The translations under genes were made by a program, and so were the position numbers. From positions 1 to 32,353 of the forward strand of contig JACNJL010000066.1 in the NCBI GenBank assembly GCA_014382585.1: a stretch of DNA of 32,353 nt. The letters run 5' to 3'. Positions 1 through 32,131 of this stretch are shown one piece after another (the stretch's first letter is position 1; each line of letters begins with the position of its first letter). The notes beneath the pieces were generated by a model. It was not told where the DNA came from and did not search any database. It worked only from the letters and a program-made list of their open reading frames with translations. The DNA comes from Limisphaerales bacterium (lineage in GTDB: Bacteria; Verrucomicrobiota; Verrucomicrobiia; Limisphaerales; UBA1100).

Positions 1-1723
1 AGCTAATGCCAAGTGCCAATTCCTCAGGCTTCTTCCAACTCTCGTCCACCCCCGCATTCGCCGCCGCATACGCCGCGTAATCCTTCACCCGTGTCTCCCA
101 AATGCAAAACTGCACCTCTGTCCCCTGAACCGGCACAAACTTCATGCCGAGCGTGTTGGTGAAGAATTTGGGAGGAGTGGGCTCCTTGTCCTTCGTCACC
201 ACCGCCACAGCGGCCACAGCGACCACAGCGGCCACAGCAGCCACCCACTTGAGCATCCCGCCAGATTTTTCAGGTTCGGGCTGGGCGGTCGCGTGCTGTG
301 AAGTCGAATGACTCTCCCTCTTCCGGGCCCTTTCCTGTTGAGGTTGCCGCTGGGCGCGGGGGGAAGGGGCGGCGGGCTTGGTTTTTTCGGGTGGCTTGGC
401 TGGAATTCGTTGCACTTCCGGCTGCACGGGCGGACTCGCGGGCTCGTCCCTCCAAGGAGCCGGTTCGTCGGTTGGGCTGTCATTGGAGGGACGAGCCTGC
501 GAGTCCGTTTCAACAACTTCCGCCTCCGCCACAGGCGTGGCAAAGCTCTCCACTTCCAGCGCCTGTTTGATTTGATTGAGCGCGGGCCGGTCAGCGGGTT
601 CGTCCTCCAGGCATTGCTCGATGAGGGCTGCCCACGCGGGCGGGCAGTCGGGGCGTTGGGTCTGGATTTTCAAGCGTCGTCCGGGGCGGCGACTGGTGAG
701 TAGCTCGTGCCAAATAACGCCCAAGGCAAACACATCCGTGGCGGCAGTGATCTCCATCCCCTCGGCCTGTTCCGGCGCCATATAATGCATCGTGCCGGCA
801 AAGGTGCCGGTGCGGGTGAGCACGGTACTTTGCTCGCCGCCGACTTGCTTGGCCAACCCAAAGTCGGCCACCTTCACCCCGCCATCCTGACCCACCAATA
901 AATTCCCGGGCTTGAGGTCGCGATGCACGATGCCGTGCGCGTGTAAATTGACGAGCCCTTCGACCACTTGCTTGAGCACGAGCTGGATTTCCTGTAAGGG
1001 CATCGGCTCGCTGGCGTTTTTGTAAACAGTCAGTCGTTCGCCCACCGTCCAGCCTTCCACCCAATCCATCGCCATCCAATGCAGCTCGCCCTCGGTGCCC
1101 GCATCCTGCAAGCGCACGAGGTTGGGATGCACCACGCTTTTGAGCGTCCGTACCTCCTGCTCAAAGCGCTTGAGCCATTGGTGATCCTTGTTCAAGTCCG
1201 GCGTGGGCAGCTTCACGGCGGCGGGTTGCGCGGTGTCCTCGTGGATGCCCTGCAACACGATGCCCATCCCGCCGCGCGCGACAAACTTCCGGATTTCATA
1301 CGGCCCAATCTTCTTCGGCAAATCGCCATTAAACGAGGCGTGCTCCACTTTGAACCGTTCCCCGCCCGCGGCATCGGCCCAGTAATCATCGCTCAACGCA
1401 CCCATCCCGCTCACGCGCCGACGGCACCGAAGGGTCACCCCGCCCAACACCAACGATAGCCCCGGAAACAATTCGGTTTCCTCCACCTCCCCCGGTTCCG
1501 GATCCAACAACGGCAACTTGGCCGGTGGCTCCGCCCGCAGCCAATAGGCATCCCCCCGCTTCACCACCTTCGCGTGAATGCGATCCACATCGGGGTGGTC
1601 GATGTGGATGGTATTGGACTTGGCCCGACCGATGCTGAGGGCGACTTGCGCAAAAAATTCCTCCGCGGTGCCCGATTCGCTCTCCACCACCAACGTGAGG
1701 TCGCTGGAGGAACTGGAGGGCAT
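1..1723 (-). CDS. FHA - Ser/Thr protein kinase - TM - FGE-sulfatase domain protein (partial, 3' end beyond window)
   Basis: This is a membrane-bound Hanks-type Ser/Thr kinase read on the minus strand; 574 codons are visible and the frame stays open through base 2. The start is the ATG at 1723, since an in-frame TAG lies about 20 codons upstream. Residues about 10-50 look like an FHA domain (SIGRAKSNTIHIDHPDVDRI). The kinase has a glycine loop (ARGGMG, near 153-158), Lys171, HRDLKPGN (267-274, catalytic Asp269), DFG (287-289) and APE (316-318). A Pro/Glu-rich linker follows, then one hydrophobic segment (about 490-510). The last visible part (FTNTLGMKFVPV...ETRVKDYAAY) is the start of an FGE-sulfatase/SUMF1-type domain. 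The architecture is common in PVC bacteria and suggests an intracellular kinase coupled to an external sensing domain. The linker contains an inverted-repeat element (432-506). Confidence 0.9.
   Translation of the reverse strand, partial: MPSSSSSDLTLVVESESGTAEEFFAQVALSIGRAKSNTIHIDHPDVDRIHAKVVKRGDAYWLRAEPPAKLPLLDPEPGEVEETELFPGLSLVLGGVTLRCRRRVSGMGALSDDYWADAAGGERFKVEHASFNGDLPKKIGPYEIRKFVARGGMGIVLQGIHEDTAQPAAVKLPTPDLNKDHQWLKRFEQEVRTLKSVVHPNLVRLQDAGTEGELHWMAMDWVEGWTVGERLTVYKNASEPMPLQEIQLVLKQVVEGLVNLHAHGIVHRDLKPGNLLVGQDGGVKVADFGLAKQVGGEQSTVLTRTGTFAGTMHYMAPEQAEGMEITAATDVFALGVIWHELLTSRRPGRRLKIQTQRPDCPPAWAALIEQCLEDEPADRPALNQIKQALEVESFATPVAEAEVVETDSQARPSNDSPTDEPAPWRDEPASPPVQPEVQRIPAKPPEKTKPAAPSPRAQRQPQQERARKRESHSTSQHATAQPEPEKSGGMLKWVAAVAAVVAVAAVAVVTKDKEPTPPKFFTNTLGMKFVPVQGTEVQFCIWETRVKDYAAYAAANAGVDESWKKPEELALGIS
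432..506. repeat. 23-bp inverted-repeat element, copy A (inside the kinase gene)
   Basis: The left arm (432-454) and right arm (484-506) are inverted copies matching at 22 of 23 positions, with a 29-base spacer. The arm core is CTCGTCCCTCCA, ending outward in GGACTCGC. The same arms occur at 22688, 31582 and 31857. Here the element lies in frame in the kinase linker, where the two arms encode TDSQARPS and WRDEPASP (about residues 406-431). Confidence 0.9.
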
Positions 1724-1751
1724 TGGGTTGGAGCCGGACACGGGGGAATGG

Positions 1752-1772
1752 TCAACTATCAACTATCAATTG
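1752..1772. repeat. Heptameric tandem repeat
   Basis: Three consecutive 7-base units are visible: TCAACTA, TCAACTA, TCAATTG. They lie in the divergent intergenic region (1724-1894) just upstream of the kinase start, so they could influence its promoter, although no convincing -35/-10 pair was found on either strand here. Confidence 0.6.
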
Positions 1773-6844: not shown

Positions 6845-6893
6845 TGTAGCCCGGGCCGGTGGCCCGGGACCCGGCCCACCGGGCCGGGCTACA
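6845..6893. terminator. GC-rich palindrome between convergent genes
   Basis: Arms TGTAGCCCGGGCCGGTGG... and its near-inverse ending CCGGGCTACA pair at about 20 of 22 positions around a short loop. It sits between the converging ends of the PQQ-like gene (6788) and the transporter gene (6908), so it could stop transcription both ways, but there is no T-run. It may instead be a dispersed palindromic repeat. Confidence 0.6.
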
Positions 6894-22635: not shown

Positions 22636-22687
22636 CGGTTGATTTTAGTTCAGCAAAATTAAAAAATAAATCCTGTCGTCGGTTTCC

Positions 22688-22744
22688 GGATTCGCAGGCT
22701 CGTCCCTCCATGGGTTGCGCTTGGAGGGACGAGCCTGCGAGTCC
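22688..22744. repeat. 23-bp inverted-repeat element, copy B
   Basis: Left arm 22688-22710 and right arm 22722-22744 are inverted copies (22 of 23 match; GGATTCGC replaces GGACTCGC on the left), with an 11-base spacer. It is in the intergenic gap between the PSD1 stop (22751) and the DUF1501 start (22635), so it could form a hairpin that separates the two genes' expression. Confidence 0.9.
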
Positions 22745-22750
22745 GTTCGT

Positions 22751-27577: not shown

Positions 27578-28009
27578 TCAATTCTCCCTTGCCGCCAGCC
27601 ATTCATCCGGCGTCATGACCGTCACTGCGTTGGCTGCGCGCTTCACCATTTCCCCGTCCAAAGTGATGAGGGTGGATTGGGATGTCATCGCCGTGGCCAC
27701 ATAAACCGCATCGGCCCCACGCAGTCGAAGGTCTGCGGCCAAGCTCGTCGAGATGTGTGCCGCCTCCTCGTCCAGTGGATGAAAATGAATGCCAGGAAAT
27801 TCGTTCAAGATGTGTCGAGTGCCCGCGACTTCCGTGGACACTTGTTTGCGACGGGCAACAGCGCCCGCAATCTCAACGGGCAACAATGTCGGTTGGTGAA
27901 GCGGAATTTCATCGGCCGCCGCCCTCGCGAGCAGTTCCAGCGACGATTCATGATTGACCTCATTGGGAAACTGAGCGCCAACCCACACATTGGCATCAAT
28001 CGTCAGCAC
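27578..28009 (-). CDS. PIN-domain toxin (VapC-like)
   Basis: The 143-residue protein has a PIN fold with the acidic residues of the family in place: Asp5 (TIDANVWV), Glu46 (PVEIAGAVAR), Asp100 (RGADAVYVATA) and Asp118 (LITLDGEMVKRA). PIN toxins are metal-dependent ribonucleases that cut RNA, usually tRNA or rRNA, when freed from their antitoxin. The start is a GTG at 28009, and the first seven bases overlap the antitoxin gene's end (28003-28009), so the antitoxin is read first. It ends 50 bases before the DUF1501 start. The pair is probably a VapBC-type module, brought in with the neighbouring HNH gene. Confidence 0.88.
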   Translation of the reverse strand: MLTIDANVWVGAQFPNEVNHESSLELLARAAADEIPLHQPTLLPVEIAGAVARRKQVSTEVAGTRHILNEFPGIHFHPLDEEAAHISTSLAADLRLRGADAVYVATAMTSQSTLITLDGEMVKRAANAVTVMTPDEWLAAREN

Positions 28010-28266
28010 CGCTCACGGCCTTTCCGAATTTCATCCACTACCCCCGGTTCCTTGGAGGGTGAGGCCGCCTCAATTTTCCGACCGAGTTCCAACCACTTTT
28101 CTACCCACTCCTTGCCGGTCAACTTTTTGCATGACGTTTTTTCGACATCGTCCAAACCTCTTTGCAGCAATTCGGGAATCAAATCCTTCAATTTCCGGTC
28201 TTCTCGAGCGGCACGAACCTTCACCTCACGCATCAAATCATCCGGCAAATCCAGTGTCGTTTTCAT
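28003..28266 (-). CDS. Ribbon-helix-helix antitoxin (VapB-like)
   Basis: The 87-residue protein starts MKTTLDLPDDLMREVKVRAAREDRKLKDLIPELLQRGL, a ribbon-helix-helix DNA-binding domain that pairs into dimers, then a charged C-terminal part (KEWVEKWLELGRKIEAASPSKEPGVVDEIRKGRERC) that would wrap the PIN toxin. Antitoxins of this class neutralise the toxin and repress their own promoter. It is upstream of, and overlaps by seven bases, the toxin gene. The region ahead of its start (28271-28308) is AT-rich with three CCATAA repeats that could be the operator. Confidence 0.88.
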   Translation of the reverse strand: MKTTLDLPDDLMREVKVRAAREDRKLKDLIPELLQRGLDDVEKTSCKKLTGKEWVEKWLELGRKIEAASPSKEPGVVDEIRKGRERC

Positions 28267-28329: not shown

Positions 28330-29241
28330 TCATTCGAATTTATGATTGGAACGATGCCATTTTAAATTTGCTCGATCTGGCCAAAACATTTTGTTTCGAG
28401 GCAGGAATACTTTCTCACCGCTGCGAGGCTTCAACAATAACGCGTTTTCTCCATCTTCTTCAAATCGATCATTGTCCACCAAAATACAAAAATCATCATC
28501 GATGCTCCAATAGCCTTGATCAAAAAGCCAATGTGCATTTTTTGATAGTGCCAAACCGTTAATTGGATGACAAAGGCCTCCTTTCTTGAACTGTCTGATA
28601 TGTGCCGCATCCAAAGGGCAAGATCCCGATAAAGACACCATCCGGTAATTTGTCAACGCGCAGGTGAAATCATACGCCGGTAAGACTCGAGCTGAGAATT
28701 TTGTGTCTCGCTTCCTTGGCGAATCGTTCAACACTAAATATTTGCCAGCATCCGAATCAACAATCGCCTGAGGAGGAACTTCCAAATTGCACATTTCAAA
28801 CAATTCATATCTTTCACTCCCTTCAAAGTATCGAGCGATTATTGTGCGGCGAAGTTCGGCCCTGAATTCATTGGTCTGCAGGCTGATCAATAGCGATGCA
28901 TCAATTTGGGCATTTTTTGCATTTTTTCGGTTGTCCGTTTTTATGCCCTCAGAATCCAGCGGAATCCAGAGTCCGTCGGAATGCATATGGAAAAACGGCA
29001 GCATCACATTGGGCCGTGTACGCCTCCGATTTGAAACTACAGTCCAATAACTATTGAAACGGAACGCCAATGCTCCATTGCGCTCGATCAATCCATTTGC
29101 AACTAAGTCCTCATCAACAAGATCACAAAGCACCAAAAGTAACAGTGGCTTGTGAGGAGCTGGACCACGAGAGTGATCAACCTTCAATCGACTGATGCAC
29201 TCCAACCAACGGAGTTGTTCGCTGGAAAATTTGTTACTCAC
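28330..29241 (-). CDS. HNH endonuclease with N-terminal sulfur-binding-like domain (putative type IV restriction)
   Basis: The 303-residue protein has an HNH_2-type nuclease domain at the C-terminal side: AAHIRQF (His214 after Asp211), then PINGLAL (Asn228) and NAHWLFDQGYWSIDDDF (His237). The N-terminal part has GPAPHKPLLLLVLCDLVD (26-43) and MLPFFHMHSDGLW (80-92), motifs I associate with sulfur-binding domains of ScoMcrA-like enzymes that cut phosphorothioate-modified DNA. The SBD assignment is inference and needs a profile search. The start is a GTG at 29241 overlapping the preceding PSD1 gene's TAA by eight bases (GTGAGTAA). Expression may thus depend on the PSD1 gene. GC content is lower than in neighbours, and no dnd modification genes are in the window. 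Confidence 0.8.
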   Translation of the reverse strand: MSNKFSSEQLRWLECISRLKVDHSRGPAPHKPLLLLVLCDLVDEDLVANGLIERNGALAFRFNSYWTVVSNRRRTRPNVMLPFFHMHSDGLWIPLDSEGIKTDNRKNAKNAQIDASLLISLQTNEFRAELRRTIIARYFEGSERYELFEMCNLEVPPQAIVDSDAGKYLVLNDSPRKRDTKFSARVLPAYDFTCALTNYRMVSLSGSCPLDAAHIRQFKKGGLCHPINGLALSKNAHWLFDQGYWSIDDDFCILVDNDRFEEDGENALLLKPRSGEKVFLPRNKMFWPDRANLKWHRSNHKFE

Positions 29242-31528
29242 GCGTGATGACCTCGTCCAGATTCAAAATCATGTTGCACAACACAGTGAATGCCGCGTGG
29301 TCGGTGGGGTTCAGTTTTTCGTCGCGTTTGGATTCGCCGATGGCTAGCAGGGCTTTGGTTTTTTTGGGGTCTTGGGCGTAGGTGGCGCGGAGTTTCTGGA
29401 TGCTCTGGAGGAGCACGGCGGCTTCCTTCGGCTTGGGGGCGCGGGCGGTGGCGAGGCGGAAGGCGTACGCGGTGCGTGCCTTGTCATCCGCTCCGCCTTC
29501 TTTTATCACACGCTGGGCCAGGGCGCGGGCAGCTTCTACATAAGTGGTGTCGTTTAATATGATGAGCGCGTGCAGCGGGGTGTTGGTGAGGCTGCGGCGG
29601 ACTTGGCAGGTTTGGCGTTTGGACTCGTCAAAGAAAATCGTCGGGCCGATTATGCGCCGCCAAAAAGTGTAGAGGCTGCGGCGATATAAATCCTCGCCTT
29701 TGCCGCGGGCATATTTCTTTTTGCCAAAAGTAGCCTCAGCCCAGACGCCGGCGGGTTGGTAGGATTTCACGGAAGGACCGCCACGTTTCTCAACTAGCAA
29801 ACCGCTGATGAAGAGCGCTTGGTCGCGAATCATCCACGAGGGCAAACGCTGGCGGGTCATGCGGGCGAGCAGGCGGTTCTTGGGATCGCGCTCGCGCAGC
29901 GCGGGAGTCACGCGCGAGGTTTGCCGATAGGTCGCGCTGAGCACGATGCGTTTGTGCAGCGCCTTCACGTCCCAACCGCTCTCGATGAATTCCAGCGCCA
30001 GCCAATCGAGCAACTCCGGATGGCTCGGGCGCTCGCCCTGCACGCCGAAATCCTCCGGCGTCTTCACGAGGCCAGTGCCGAAAAACTGCTGCCAAATGCG
30101 GTTTACTGTCACGCGCGCGGTGAGTGGGTGCCTGTCATTGACAAGCCACTGCGCGAGATGAAGCCGGTTAGGGGTGCCCGATTGCGCGTTCGCGCCAAAC
30201 ACGGTCGGCCATGCGGAAGTCACGGTCACATTGCTTGGATTATTATACACGCCACGCACCAGCACTTTGGTGGTGCGCGCTTTGGCCTGCTCCTGCATCA
30301 CCATCACTTTGGGAAATTTTTTACGGAGGTCGGCGATGCGTTTTTTGGCAGCGTCGATTTTCGGTTTTTCTTTCAGCGATTGAATTTTTTCCTCCAGTTC
30401 TGAAATTTCCTTTTGTTGCGCAGCCGATGCCACCGCGAGTACGGGTGCAGTTTGGCCGCTGCCGCCGCCGCCGTTCACAGGCGTGTTATTAAAAAACGCA
30501 AACAGACCGTAGTAATCACGCTGCGTAATGGCATCAAACTTGTGATCGTGGCAGCGACTGCAGGTCATCGTGGCGCCCAGCCAAAGGGTGCTCATCGTTT
30601 CCATTTGGTCGAAAATATATTCCACGCGATTCTCCTCCGCGATGCGGCCACCCTCGCCGTTAATCATGTGGTTGCGATTGAACGCCGTCGCCAGCCGCTG
30701 CTCGTCCGTGGCCTTGGGCAACAAGTCGCCCGCGAGTTGCTCGATGGTGAATGTGTCGTACGGCACGTTGGCGTTGAGCGTGCGCACCACCCAATCGCGC
30801 CACGGCCACATCGTGCGATCGTTGTCGCCCTGGTAGCCGTTGCTATCCGCATAACGCGCGGCCTCGAGCCAGTCCCAAGCCATCCGCTCGCCGTAACGCG
30901 GCGAAGCCAACAGCCGGTCGACCACATTTTTAAATGACGATTTTGGATTTTCGATTGACGATTTCAGGAAATCATCGGCCTCTTTCAGCGTAGGCGGAAG
31001 ACCGGTGAGATCGAGGGTAACGCGGCGAAGCCAAGTAATCTTGCCCGCCTCGGCCGAAGGCTTCAGCCTTTCGCGCTCCAGACGCGCGAGGATGAAACGG
31101 TCAATCCCATTGCGCGGCCACTTTGCATGGTTCACTTTTGGCAAGGCCGATCGGCGCGGCGGTTCGTACGCCCAATGCTTGCCCCACTTCGCGCCGGCAT
31201 CCACCCAGGCCTTGAGCGTGGCCTTTTGCTCGGCGGTGAGCTTGAGCTTCGAATTCGGTGGCGGCATCCGCTCGTCGGGGTCGCTGGAAAAAACCCGCGC
31301 GATTAATTCGCTCGCCGCGCTCTTGCCCGGCACAATCACCTCCGCCTTCGCGTCCTTTTCGCGGTCCAGCCGCAGCTTCGCCTTACGCGCATTCGCATCC
31401 GGCCCGTGGCAGGCAAAGCAGGTATCCGAAAGAATCGGCAACACGTCCCGGCTAAAATCCGGCGCGGCTTTCGCGCCATTTACAACAAAAGGCAGCAGCA
31501 ATATCGTGATGAGCAACAAGCGCGGCAT
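29234..31528 (-). CDS. PSD1 / DUF1549-DUF1553 cytochrome-domain protein (shorter paralogue)
   Basis: The 764-residue secreted protein begins with a signal peptide ([21 protein letters not shown]). Its PSCyt1 domain has CxxCH (Cys37, Cys40, His41 in [19 protein letters not shown]), then DUF1549 ([36 protein letters not shown]) with a second haem-type motif ([10 protein letters not shown]). DUF1553 forms the C-terminal half ([51 protein letters not shown]). Compared with the 22751 paralogue it lacks the discoidin-like insert. Residues about 188-197 come from an in-frame heptameric repeat. The C-terminus (NLDEVITRE) is normal, so it seems intact. It is probably the original partner of the DUF1501 gene at 26077, now separated by the HNH and toxin-antitoxin genes. 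Confidence 0.93.
30939..30966. repeat. Heptameric tandem repeat inside a PSD1 gene
   Basis: Four adjoining 7-base units (GATTTTG, GATTTTC, GATTGAC, GATTTCA on the plus strand) lie in frame in the PSD1 gene. The coding strand reads as [10 protein letters not shown]. The aligned stretch of the paralogue (IADKSPDAYSKLVDRLL) has no such repeat and is slightly shorter, so the array looks inserted. Confidence 0.65.
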
Positions 31529-31581
31529 CGGCGCTAGTGTGGCGGACCAACGAAGTTTGTCCAGTCGGGAGCGTCGGCAAC

Positions 31582-31642
31582 GGACTCGCAGGCTCGTCCC
31601 TCCATAGGCGCGCTCGGACTGGAGGGACGAGCCTGCGAGTCC
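31582..31642. repeat. 23-bp inverted-repeat element, copy C
   Basis: Left arm 31582-31604 and right arm 31620-31642 are perfect inverted copies (23 of 23), with a 15-base spacer. It lies about 55 bases upstream of the PSD1 start. The flank on the right, GATTCTCAC, is also found after copy D. Confidence 0.92.
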
Positions 31643-31657
31643 GCTAGATGATTCTCA

Positions 31658-31681
31658 CGCAGAGGCGCGGAGGCGCAGAGA
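31658..31681. repeat. 8-base tandem repeat
   Basis: Three units CGCAGAGG, CGCGGAGG and CGCAGAGA follow one another. The motif resembles a short repeat widely seen in environmental bacterial genomes, but its role is unknown. Confidence 0.7.
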
Positions 31682-31740
31682 ATTTAATCGAAGCCCAAGA
31701 GGGACGAATTCCACCTCGCCCCTATCTGGTTTAACTCCGC

Positions 31741-31759
31741 GCCACGGGCGCGCCGTGGC
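31741..31759. repeat. Short GC palindrome
   Basis: GCCACGG (31741-31747) and CCGTGGC (31753-31759) are perfect inverted copies around GCGCG. It may be part of a larger repeat within this gene-free interval. Confidence 0.5.
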
Positions 31760-31774
31760 TGGCCACAGTGCTGA

Positions 31775-31828
31775 GGTAGGGCGGTTTCTCCGAAACCGCC
31801 TCGGCGCGCTCGGAGAGCACGCCCTACC
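31775..31828. repeat. Dispersed palindrome, family 2, copy 2
   Basis: Its reverse complement begins GGTAGGGCGTGCTCTCCG and ends CCGCCCTACC, matching the palindrome at 18312-18366. The ends are inverted copies (GGTAGGGCG and CGCCCTACC with a small offset), giving a hairpin. Confidence 0.75.
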
Positions 31829-31856
31829 AGTTAGTGGATTGGCGCTTGACGATAGC

Positions 31857-31920
31857 GGACTCGCGGGCTCGTCCCTCCATTGACAACGGGGCCGCAATGG
31901 AGGGACGAGCCTGCGAGTCC
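31857..31920. repeat. 23-bp inverted-repeat element, copy D
   Basis: Left arm 31857-31879 and right arm 31898-31920 are inverted copies (22 of 23 match; GCGGG versus GCAGG), with an 18-base spacer. It abuts the stop codon (31922-31924) of the dioxygenase remnant, and on the minus strand follows it like a terminator. Confidence 0.92.
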
Positions 31921-31921
31921 G

Positions 31922-32131
31922 TTAACTGATTCTCACCGCCTGCGCCGGATCATACGCCAGCGCCGGGTTCACCAACCGCGCGTCATTCCGCAAAAAATGA
32001 AAGGTCACCGCCCGGCGCGGTTGATCGCTGCGGTTGGCGGAGGATTGATGCAGCGTATTGCCGTGATGGATGGACACCCCACCACGCGGCACCGGCGCCA
32101 TCAACTGCCCGTCACGCCGGAAGGCTTCCTG
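31922..32131 (-). pseudogene. 5'-truncated phytanoyl-CoA dioxygenase (PhyH) family remnant
   Basis: The minus frame from 32131 to a TAA at 31922 encodes about 69 residues: QEAFRRDGQLMAPVPRGGVSIHHGNTLHQSSANRSDQPRRAVTFHFLRND and AYDPAQAVRIS. The GGVSIHHGNTLH part has the distal iron-binding His and the conserved Arg-containing segment of the PhyH (Fe(II)/2-oxoglutarate dioxygenase) fold, at its C-terminus. Complete members are about 250-300 residues. An in-frame TAA (32132-32134) stands just upstream and the sequence beyond becomes AT-rich and unrelated, so the first three quarters are missing. It is either a decayed gene at a rearrangement breakpoint or an artefact of assembly. A shorter ORF from ATG 32104 (60 residues) is unlikely to be functional. 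Confidence 0.65.

Follow-up and report, generated by a model that had tools for sequence, protein, structure and literature searches.

A dispersed family of probable REP-like inverted dimers with fixed arms and variable spacers in a Limisphaerales bacterium and its relatives

The window, which is the whole stretch of DNA analysed here, comprises 32,353 nt of contig JACNJL010000066.1 of a Limisphaerales bacterium, whose own genome is labelled G000. Distributed along it are four copies (A–D) of a hairpin repeat with 24-nt arms, which we refer to here as F1. Arms were searched for at up to three mismatches, with 100 dinucleotide-preserving shuffles of the window as control; the eight matches in the window form four inverted pairs, and the shuffles give none. 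The 23-bp cores of the pairs lie at 432–454/484–506 (A), 22688–22710/22722–22744 (B), 31582–31604/31620–31642 (C) and 31857–31879/31898–31920 (D), with one mismatch each in the left arms of A, B and D and none in the other arms. A sequence-only reading had described four copies with arms of at most one mismatch around differing spacers of 29, 11, 15 and 18 bases, which this search confirms. The copies and the repeats around C and D are as follows.

431–507: copy A; arms 431–454 and 484–507, spacer 455–483 (29 nt)
22687–22745: copy B; arms 22687–22710 and 22722–22745, spacer of 11 nt
31581–31643: copy C; arms 31581–31604 and 31620–31643, spacer 31605–31619 (15 nt)
31644–31658, plus strand: right flank of copy C; ends in GATTCTCAC and resembles the right flank of copy D at 31922–31936
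31699–31939: composite repeat of about 240 bases holding the second palindrome and copy D; matches contig C53 of G000 at 93%
31775–31828: second palindrome, between C and D; GGTAGGGCGGTTTCTCC.../...GGAGAGCACGCCCTACC, 77% complementary, of the GGTAGGGC family
31856–31921: copy D; arms 31856–31879 and 31898–31921, spacer of 18 nt

Copy B is intergenic, with a PSD1-domain gene on one side and a DUF1501 gene on the other (minus strand). The spacer of copy C includes GGCGCGCTCGGA, a piece of the adjoining GGTAGGGC repeat family, and copy D sits within the composite repeat that recurs on C53. Right arm and flank of C and D together form a 44-nt direct repeat (89%). The likeness of these two flanks had been noticed in the sequence-only reading and stands, whereas the common target that it hinted at does not: the GATTCTCAC flank occurs in two of the 45 paired G000 copies read, C and D, and at no other, and looks like a local duplication. 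Adjoining copy C at 31652–31690 is a GATTCTCACGCAGAGGCGCGGAGGCGCAGAGAA stretch, which resembles the CACAGAG-type palindromes that nest other F1 copies. Elsewhere in the window, a PIN-domain gene (27578–28266, E 1.9e-10) overlaps a small upstream gene (87 aa, without a Pfam match) in a toxin–antitoxin arrangement, and an HNH_2 gene (28330–29241) adjoins this pair in a stretch low in G+C (0.448).

In an alignment of all copies, each arm carries one further conserved outer base (C...G), so that the arm is 24 nt long rather than 23, with the sequence C-GGACTCGC-AG-GCTCGTCC-CTCCA. Its conservation stops abruptly at both ends. The F1 unit is composed of a TGGAG end, an imperfect palindrome GGACGAGC-CT-GCGAGTCC and a final G; the unit ends are CGGAC and CTCCA, and the TGGAG end is present in nearly all arms. 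Arm variation is confined to positions 9 and 10, the midpoint of the imperfect palindrome GGACTCGC/GCTCGTCC, in which a tandem G.A pair accounts for the mismatches. Position 9 varies in 13% and position 10 in 24% of 100 G000 arms, with all others at ≤5%; the corresponding values in 77 arms of the sister genome G004 are 6%, 25% and, elsewhere, ≤6%. This arrangement of tag (TGGAG), stem, small loop and stem may be the plan of a REP unit. A single F1 arm folds weakly as DNA (−2.0 kcal/mol, z 0.2), and tandem G.A pairing may be poorly modelled by fold prediction; the arms of two other palindrome families, F2 (GTGCTGCCGGCATCTTGCCGGCAG) and F6 (GGTAGGGACGCGCTGTGCGCGTCC), fold well (−11.8 and −10.7).

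Paired elements in the regions read number 45 in G000 (38 with TGGAG inward, 7 outward) and 36 in G004 (27 and 9). Spacers of inward pairs are 10–40 bases long, with one of 94, and those of outward pairs 11–21. As each element consists of two inverted units, mostly with the TGGAG ends facing the spacer, one strand folds into a 24-bp hairpin. Folded as single-stranded DNA, copies A–D give long hairpins of −31.3 to −36.2 kcal/mol (z −9.4 to −11.5). The whole window contains no Rfam match at the gathering score, and six sub-threshold microRNA matches at 31500–32000 all fall far below it; the copies therefore do not align with conserved RNA genes, and that identity for them is rejected.

The genome holds many more copies than the window. 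Across the 3,696,680 bases of G000 (70 contigs), 47 arms on one strand and 49 on the other match at ≤3 mismatches, 96 in all, whereas the reversed arm pattern used as control has no match; the copies are dispersed over about fifty places. At ≤2 mismatches, F1 arms occur in eight of 58 genomes searched, the own genome included: 86 arms in G000, 95 in its sister G004, 15 each in G005 and G006, two to six in three further genomes of the same family and a single pair in G020, which belongs to another family. The sisters G001–G003 have no F1 arms at this threshold. At least 120 stretches in the species collection contain a match, and among the loci listed all 80 titles are Verrucomicrobiota by name. 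Viral contigs gave no F1 arm match, and a virus origin is rejected.

Gene context, including that of the gaps in relatives, was read from ORF calls made by a codon-usage script trained on this window, and G004 was represented by 40 regions of at least about 44 clusters. Seventy of the 81 paired elements in the two genomes are intergenic, 56 lying between co-directional, 9 between convergent and 5 between divergent genes; 8 are in long frames and 3 at edges. Median distances in the two genomes are 21.5 and 24.5 bases to the upstream stop and 51.5 and 48 to the downstream start; F1 lies nearer the stop than the start, a difference that reaches significance in G004 (p 0.017) and not in G000 (p 0.28), and the shortage between divergent genes, counted by cluster, is not significant (p 0.24). 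The flanks are mutually inverted (score ≥15) in 3 of 44 G000 and 4 of 36 G004 elements, with 0.5% and 0.2% in swapped-flank controls, which places such elements in the loop of another palindrome. Pairs with a common spacer indicate that some elements moved together, which lowers the number of independent events.

One of the in-frame copies is copy A itself, located in a protein kinase gene (2..1762, minus strand) at a linker position that follows the kinase domain (Pkinase, residues 155–400 of 587, E 8.3e-46) and read as TDSQARPS-NDSPTDEPAP-WRDEPASP. An orthologous DNA match to the copy A stretch is absent in six sister genomes. The TDSQARPS...WRDEPASP reading is also found in a PutA-like gene, in a sugar kinase/MurQ-like fusion and at C21:40, and L147 and L126 read F1 in other frames. 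In the linker of the kinase/MurQ-like fusion (named by eye), F1 is in frame in G000 and G004 (L045), and the same linker in G001 and G002 (L381, L382) contains a CCCTCAA-type repeat, also in frame.

The PutA-like gene, which has Pro_dh and Aldedh domains in its G020 copy, is without F1 in G005 and G003, where the site is empty and the frame is kept. In G000, G004 and G020 its F1 arms are identical and equal to the family sequence; the DNA around them differs from that of G000 by 8% in G004 and 21% in G020. Between these arms, G020 has the G000 spacer in exactly inverted form, as its reverse complement, and G004 has another spacer; G020 contains no other F1 copy at ≤2 mismatches. Template switching is known to invert loops while leaving the stems intact, as described in PMC8794818. 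The family-perfect arms suggest that conversion or re-insertion may have acted here besides template switching.

Spacers are seldom shared between sites: similar pairs number 5 of 946 in G000, against 0.4 in shuffles, and 4 of 630 in G004, against 0.05. Three of the five G000 pairs are copies duplicated with their surroundings or located in paralogous stretches (C57, C37, C53/D), one belongs to a shared composite (C15/C46) and one lies inside another repeat (C16/C30). In other Verrucomicrobiota MAGs, pooled from genomes picked by eye, 40 of 300 spacer pairs are similar, many around TTTTGCGCTTGGCT, so that the spacer travels or is inherited there. F1 arms in such MAGs (L290, L294, L295 and similar) often enclose TTTTGCGCTTGGC-type spacers, with GCTTGGCCAAGC palindromes nearby; this recurrence indicates that spacer conservation differs among lineages. 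Old copies common to G000 and G004 mostly retain their spacers, with arms of up to three mismatches: 21 of 21 spacer bases are kept at C28:173297/L124, and few have changed at C45/L131, C20/L141 and C23/L145. Orthologous spacers are unlike at C40/L154 and C57/L150, which counts against simple loop inheritance.

Two origins of the spacers were rejected. Former target DNA with an arm inserted on either side does not fit, since the spacers of B, C35:102154 and C49:22179 are unlike the empty-site stretches tested; comparison of the PutA spacer with two empty sites gave p 0.013 and 0.007, but its 11 bases are too few to carry weight. Copying from elsewhere is disfavoured because no clear source is present in 249,954 bases (overlaps included), with the exceptions of C (the GGTAGGGC family piece), the C15/C38/C46 composites, which match one another, and D, which matches C53; in addition, the 15-base spacer of C28:78614 matches a stretch on C67.

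Orthologous sites in the relatives are empty, filled with F1 or filled with other palindromes. Aligned by its flanks, site B is empty in G005 and G006 and occupied by F2 in G004 and G001, with two unrelated spacers. At C35:102154 the site is empty in G001 and G006, whose two genes overlap there as TAATG; G001 has a CACAGAG-type palindrome at C35:104521; and C49:22179, where G004 has F2, is empty in G001, G002 and G005. At C49:24720, all six genomes examined are filled, by at least three families: besides F1 in G000 there is F2 in G004 and G002 (with a similar spacer), a decayed F2 in G005, F6 in G006 and F6 within F2 in G001. A strict palindrome finder detects a long palindrome in 10 of 113 gaps read in five relatives: 6 of 16 gaps at G000 F1 sites versus 4 of 97 others (p 0.0005), a comparison in which the 16 gaps were assigned by hand, the relatives are not phylogenetically independent, decayed or nested palindromes missed by the finder (C49:24720 in G001, G002 and G005) counted as absent, and the C35:102154 sites of G001 and G006, both included in the 16, consist of overlapping genes and may lie outside the 113.

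Empty orthologous sites, and unrelated families at others, support the mobility of F1, whose movement we infer from this presence and absence. Together with the 96 arms in the genome, the empty sites in sisters uphold the sequence-only proposal of a dispersed, REP/MITE-like and presumably mobile family in which the ends are fixed and the middle is free. The target duplications that comparison with empty sites was expected to reveal did not appear: none exceed chance, 30 of 38 G000 and 24 of 27 G004 elements having no abutting direct repeats, the longest measuring 3 bases and longer ones occurring only in swapped controls. Compared with empty sites, the inserted blocks sometimes carry extra bases beside the hairpin.

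Candidate transposases were sought as Y1_Tnp genes (Pfam PF01797). The one clear Y1_Tnp gene of G000 lies at C30:96043-96384 (E 2.0e-29), and the repeats on its flanks are of the GCTGACGTCGCTTCGCGACTA type, not F1. A second, weak match below the cut-off (L032, G000:C49:9320-9547, 20.4 bits) is followed about 100 bases further on by an exact GGTAGGGCGTGCTCTCCGAGCGCGCC repeat, with which it may form a cognate pair. Eleven of the 22 genomes searched have Y1_Tnp genes, as do 3 of 11 further F1-bearing genomes; G005 and G006, each with 15 arms, have no match in their incomplete assemblies. None of 60 Y1_Tnp loci in G000, its relatives and other F1-bearing genomes is bracketed by F1 arms. An arm lies in the flanks of two of the 60, at L212 outside the gene's own terminal repeats and at L357 as a single arm with three mismatches. 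A further palindrome family, F3 (TGTAGCCCGGGCCGGTGGCCCGGG), serves as a positive control: mismatch-free F3 copies stand on either side of the Y1_Tnp gene of G004:C58. Two F3 dimers in G004, at L219 1273-1370 and 1892-1989, form with the Y1_Tnp gene that they bracket a typical RAYT/REP pair (RAYT, REP-associated tyrosine transposase). The suggested link of the copies to a RAYT/TnpA-REP gene, and with it a RAYT as the cognate enzyme of F1, is thus not supported: the G000 gene is flanked by a different repeat, and none of the 60 Y1_Tnp loci is bracketed by F1 arms. An F3 palindrome (TGTAGCCCGGGCCGGTGGCCCGGG) is also present in the window, at 6845–6893 between convergent genes, with one base between its arms and GTAG-type ends outward.

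PMC3733652 describes GTAG- and CGTC-tagged REPs, Verrucomicrobia included (Verrucomicrobium O. terrae), with GYAG, GYRG, GTRG, GTMG and GTGG as variants of the GTAG tag. In its terms, dimers with the tags inside are TT, and it offers the rule of thumb that spacers vary in TT dimers and are conserved in HH dimers; the REPs it describes lie behind co-directional and convergent genes and also inside genes. F1 resembles these TT dimers in its short tagged unit, imperfect palindrome, inverted pairing and variable spacers between inward tags, and in its location behind co-directional or convergent genes and occasionally in frame within genes. It is also like REPs in its many dispersed, mainly intergenic dimers and in its 24-nt unit, which falls within 20–40 bases. 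This plan suggests that F1 works like a REP TT dimer. It differs from the TT dimers in the weak predicted folding of the single arm, the predominance of inward dimers (38/45, 27/36) and the lack of a linked Y1_Tnp gene among those found. Its tag, GGAG, is outside the variants published in PMC3733652 for the GTAG superfamily, and its unit ends, CGGAC and CTCCA, are unlike the CGTC, TGTC or CCTC of the CGTC superfamily given there. By tag and by the RAYT criterion, F1 is outside the published REP superfamilies as PMC3733652 describes them. Inward tags with variable spacers are already published; F1 differs in its GGAG tag, its missing transposase and its site exchange.

The REPINs of Pseudomonas fluorescens, as presented in PMC3116915, are conserved at their ends and less so in the spacer, and are linked to RAYTs. 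F1 shares with them the inverted pair, the conserved ends around a less conserved spacer and the single long hairpin; unlike theirs, its spacer length is not fixed (10–40, one of 94) and it brackets no RAYT (0/60). Like the Rickettsia palindromic elements mentioned in PMC3733652, F1 is a palindromic repeat found in frame in protein genes, with the TDSQARPS...WRDEPASP reading shared by several unrelated ones, but it belongs to a different phylum, differs in sequence and length, and is mostly intergenic. With MITEs it has in common that it is short, non-coding and dispersed, with terminal inverted arms (24 nt); it is unlike them in having no target duplications, no common internal sequence and no parent among the Y1_Tnp genes searched.

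F1 is probably a REP-like inverted dimer, that is, a short non-autonomous mobile repeat, for which we propose spread in trans. Copies would move as hairpins of single-stranded DNA, acted on by an enzyme that recognizes the arms and ignores the loop; the 60 Y1_Tnp loci yielded no such enzyme linked to F1. The route would be HUH, IS200/IS605-like, as proposed for REPs, and an insertion would settle where it is tolerated. Loops may later change through replication errors at the hairpin, including template switching that can invert them, and through other repeats inserting into them.

A REPIN proper, whose dimers would be moved by a linked RAYT, would share the REP-like anatomy and finds support in the Y1_Tnp genes of G000 (one clear, one weak) and of 11 of 22 genomes, as well as in F3, which does bracket such a gene in G004. 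We nevertheless consider it unlikely for F1, because the tag differs from GTAG, none of the 60 loci is bracketed and the two with an arm in their flanks do not have it beside the gene, and G005 and G006 have 15 arms each with no Y1_Tnp match, albeit in incomplete assemblies. Still less probable is that F1 is not mobile and that selection retains it, site by site, as a conserved regulatory hairpin (a terminator or an element of mRNA stability). The hairpins are long and stable and lie mostly between co-directional or convergent genes, and the corresponding gaps of sisters contain other palindromes, as though a hairpin were called for at these places. Several orthologous gaps are nonetheless without a hairpin, 8 of 81 copies lie in long frames, Rfam gives no match, and the arms of old copies decay without matching changes. 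At least six T in the nine bases after the stem occur in 4 of 38 and 2 of 27 inward-tag copies, and with so few T-runs an intrinsic terminator is rejected.

Segmental duplication with gene conversion among older copies, and no transposition at all, clearly accounts for some copies, namely the surroundings of D on C53, the C37 and C57 pairs and the C15/C38/C46 composites, and the perfect arms at the old PutA-like site suggest conversion. As an explanation of the whole family it is very unlikely: most copies share neither flanks nor spacers, yet have exact arms, and several sister sites are empty with nothing missing beyond the element and some tens of bases. Least probable of these explanations is an ordinary MITE, with arms that are the terminal inverted repeats of a DDE-type transposon moved by cut and paste with target duplications. 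Perfect inverted ends, a free middle and dispersal are as expected of such an element, but abutting direct repeats do not exceed chance, no arm-bracketed gene was noticed (the systematic search being for Y1_Tnp), and outward-facing pairs also occur (7/45).

Why the ends of REP-like dimers stay perfect when their middles are arbitrary, and whether their sites are chosen or merely tolerated, has to our knowledge not been settled. A bolder reading, which we regard as doubtful, is that copying reads the stem only: arms would be renewed to the family sequence at existing sites, with the loop left to undergo inversion, replacement or invasion, and between sister species one palindrome family would take over from another at a restricted number of chromosomal sites. 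If true, the PutA-like gene would be the type case of stem-only renewal, and C49:24720 that of a site passing between families. F1 is also a REP-like family in which exact copies are numerous and for which 60 Y1_Tnp loci yielded no linked RAYT. Its chief interest is in the exchange of families at shared sites and the behaviour of loops between fixed stems; with the same sites empty, filled or differently filled within one genus, insertion, loop turnover and family exchange become countable.
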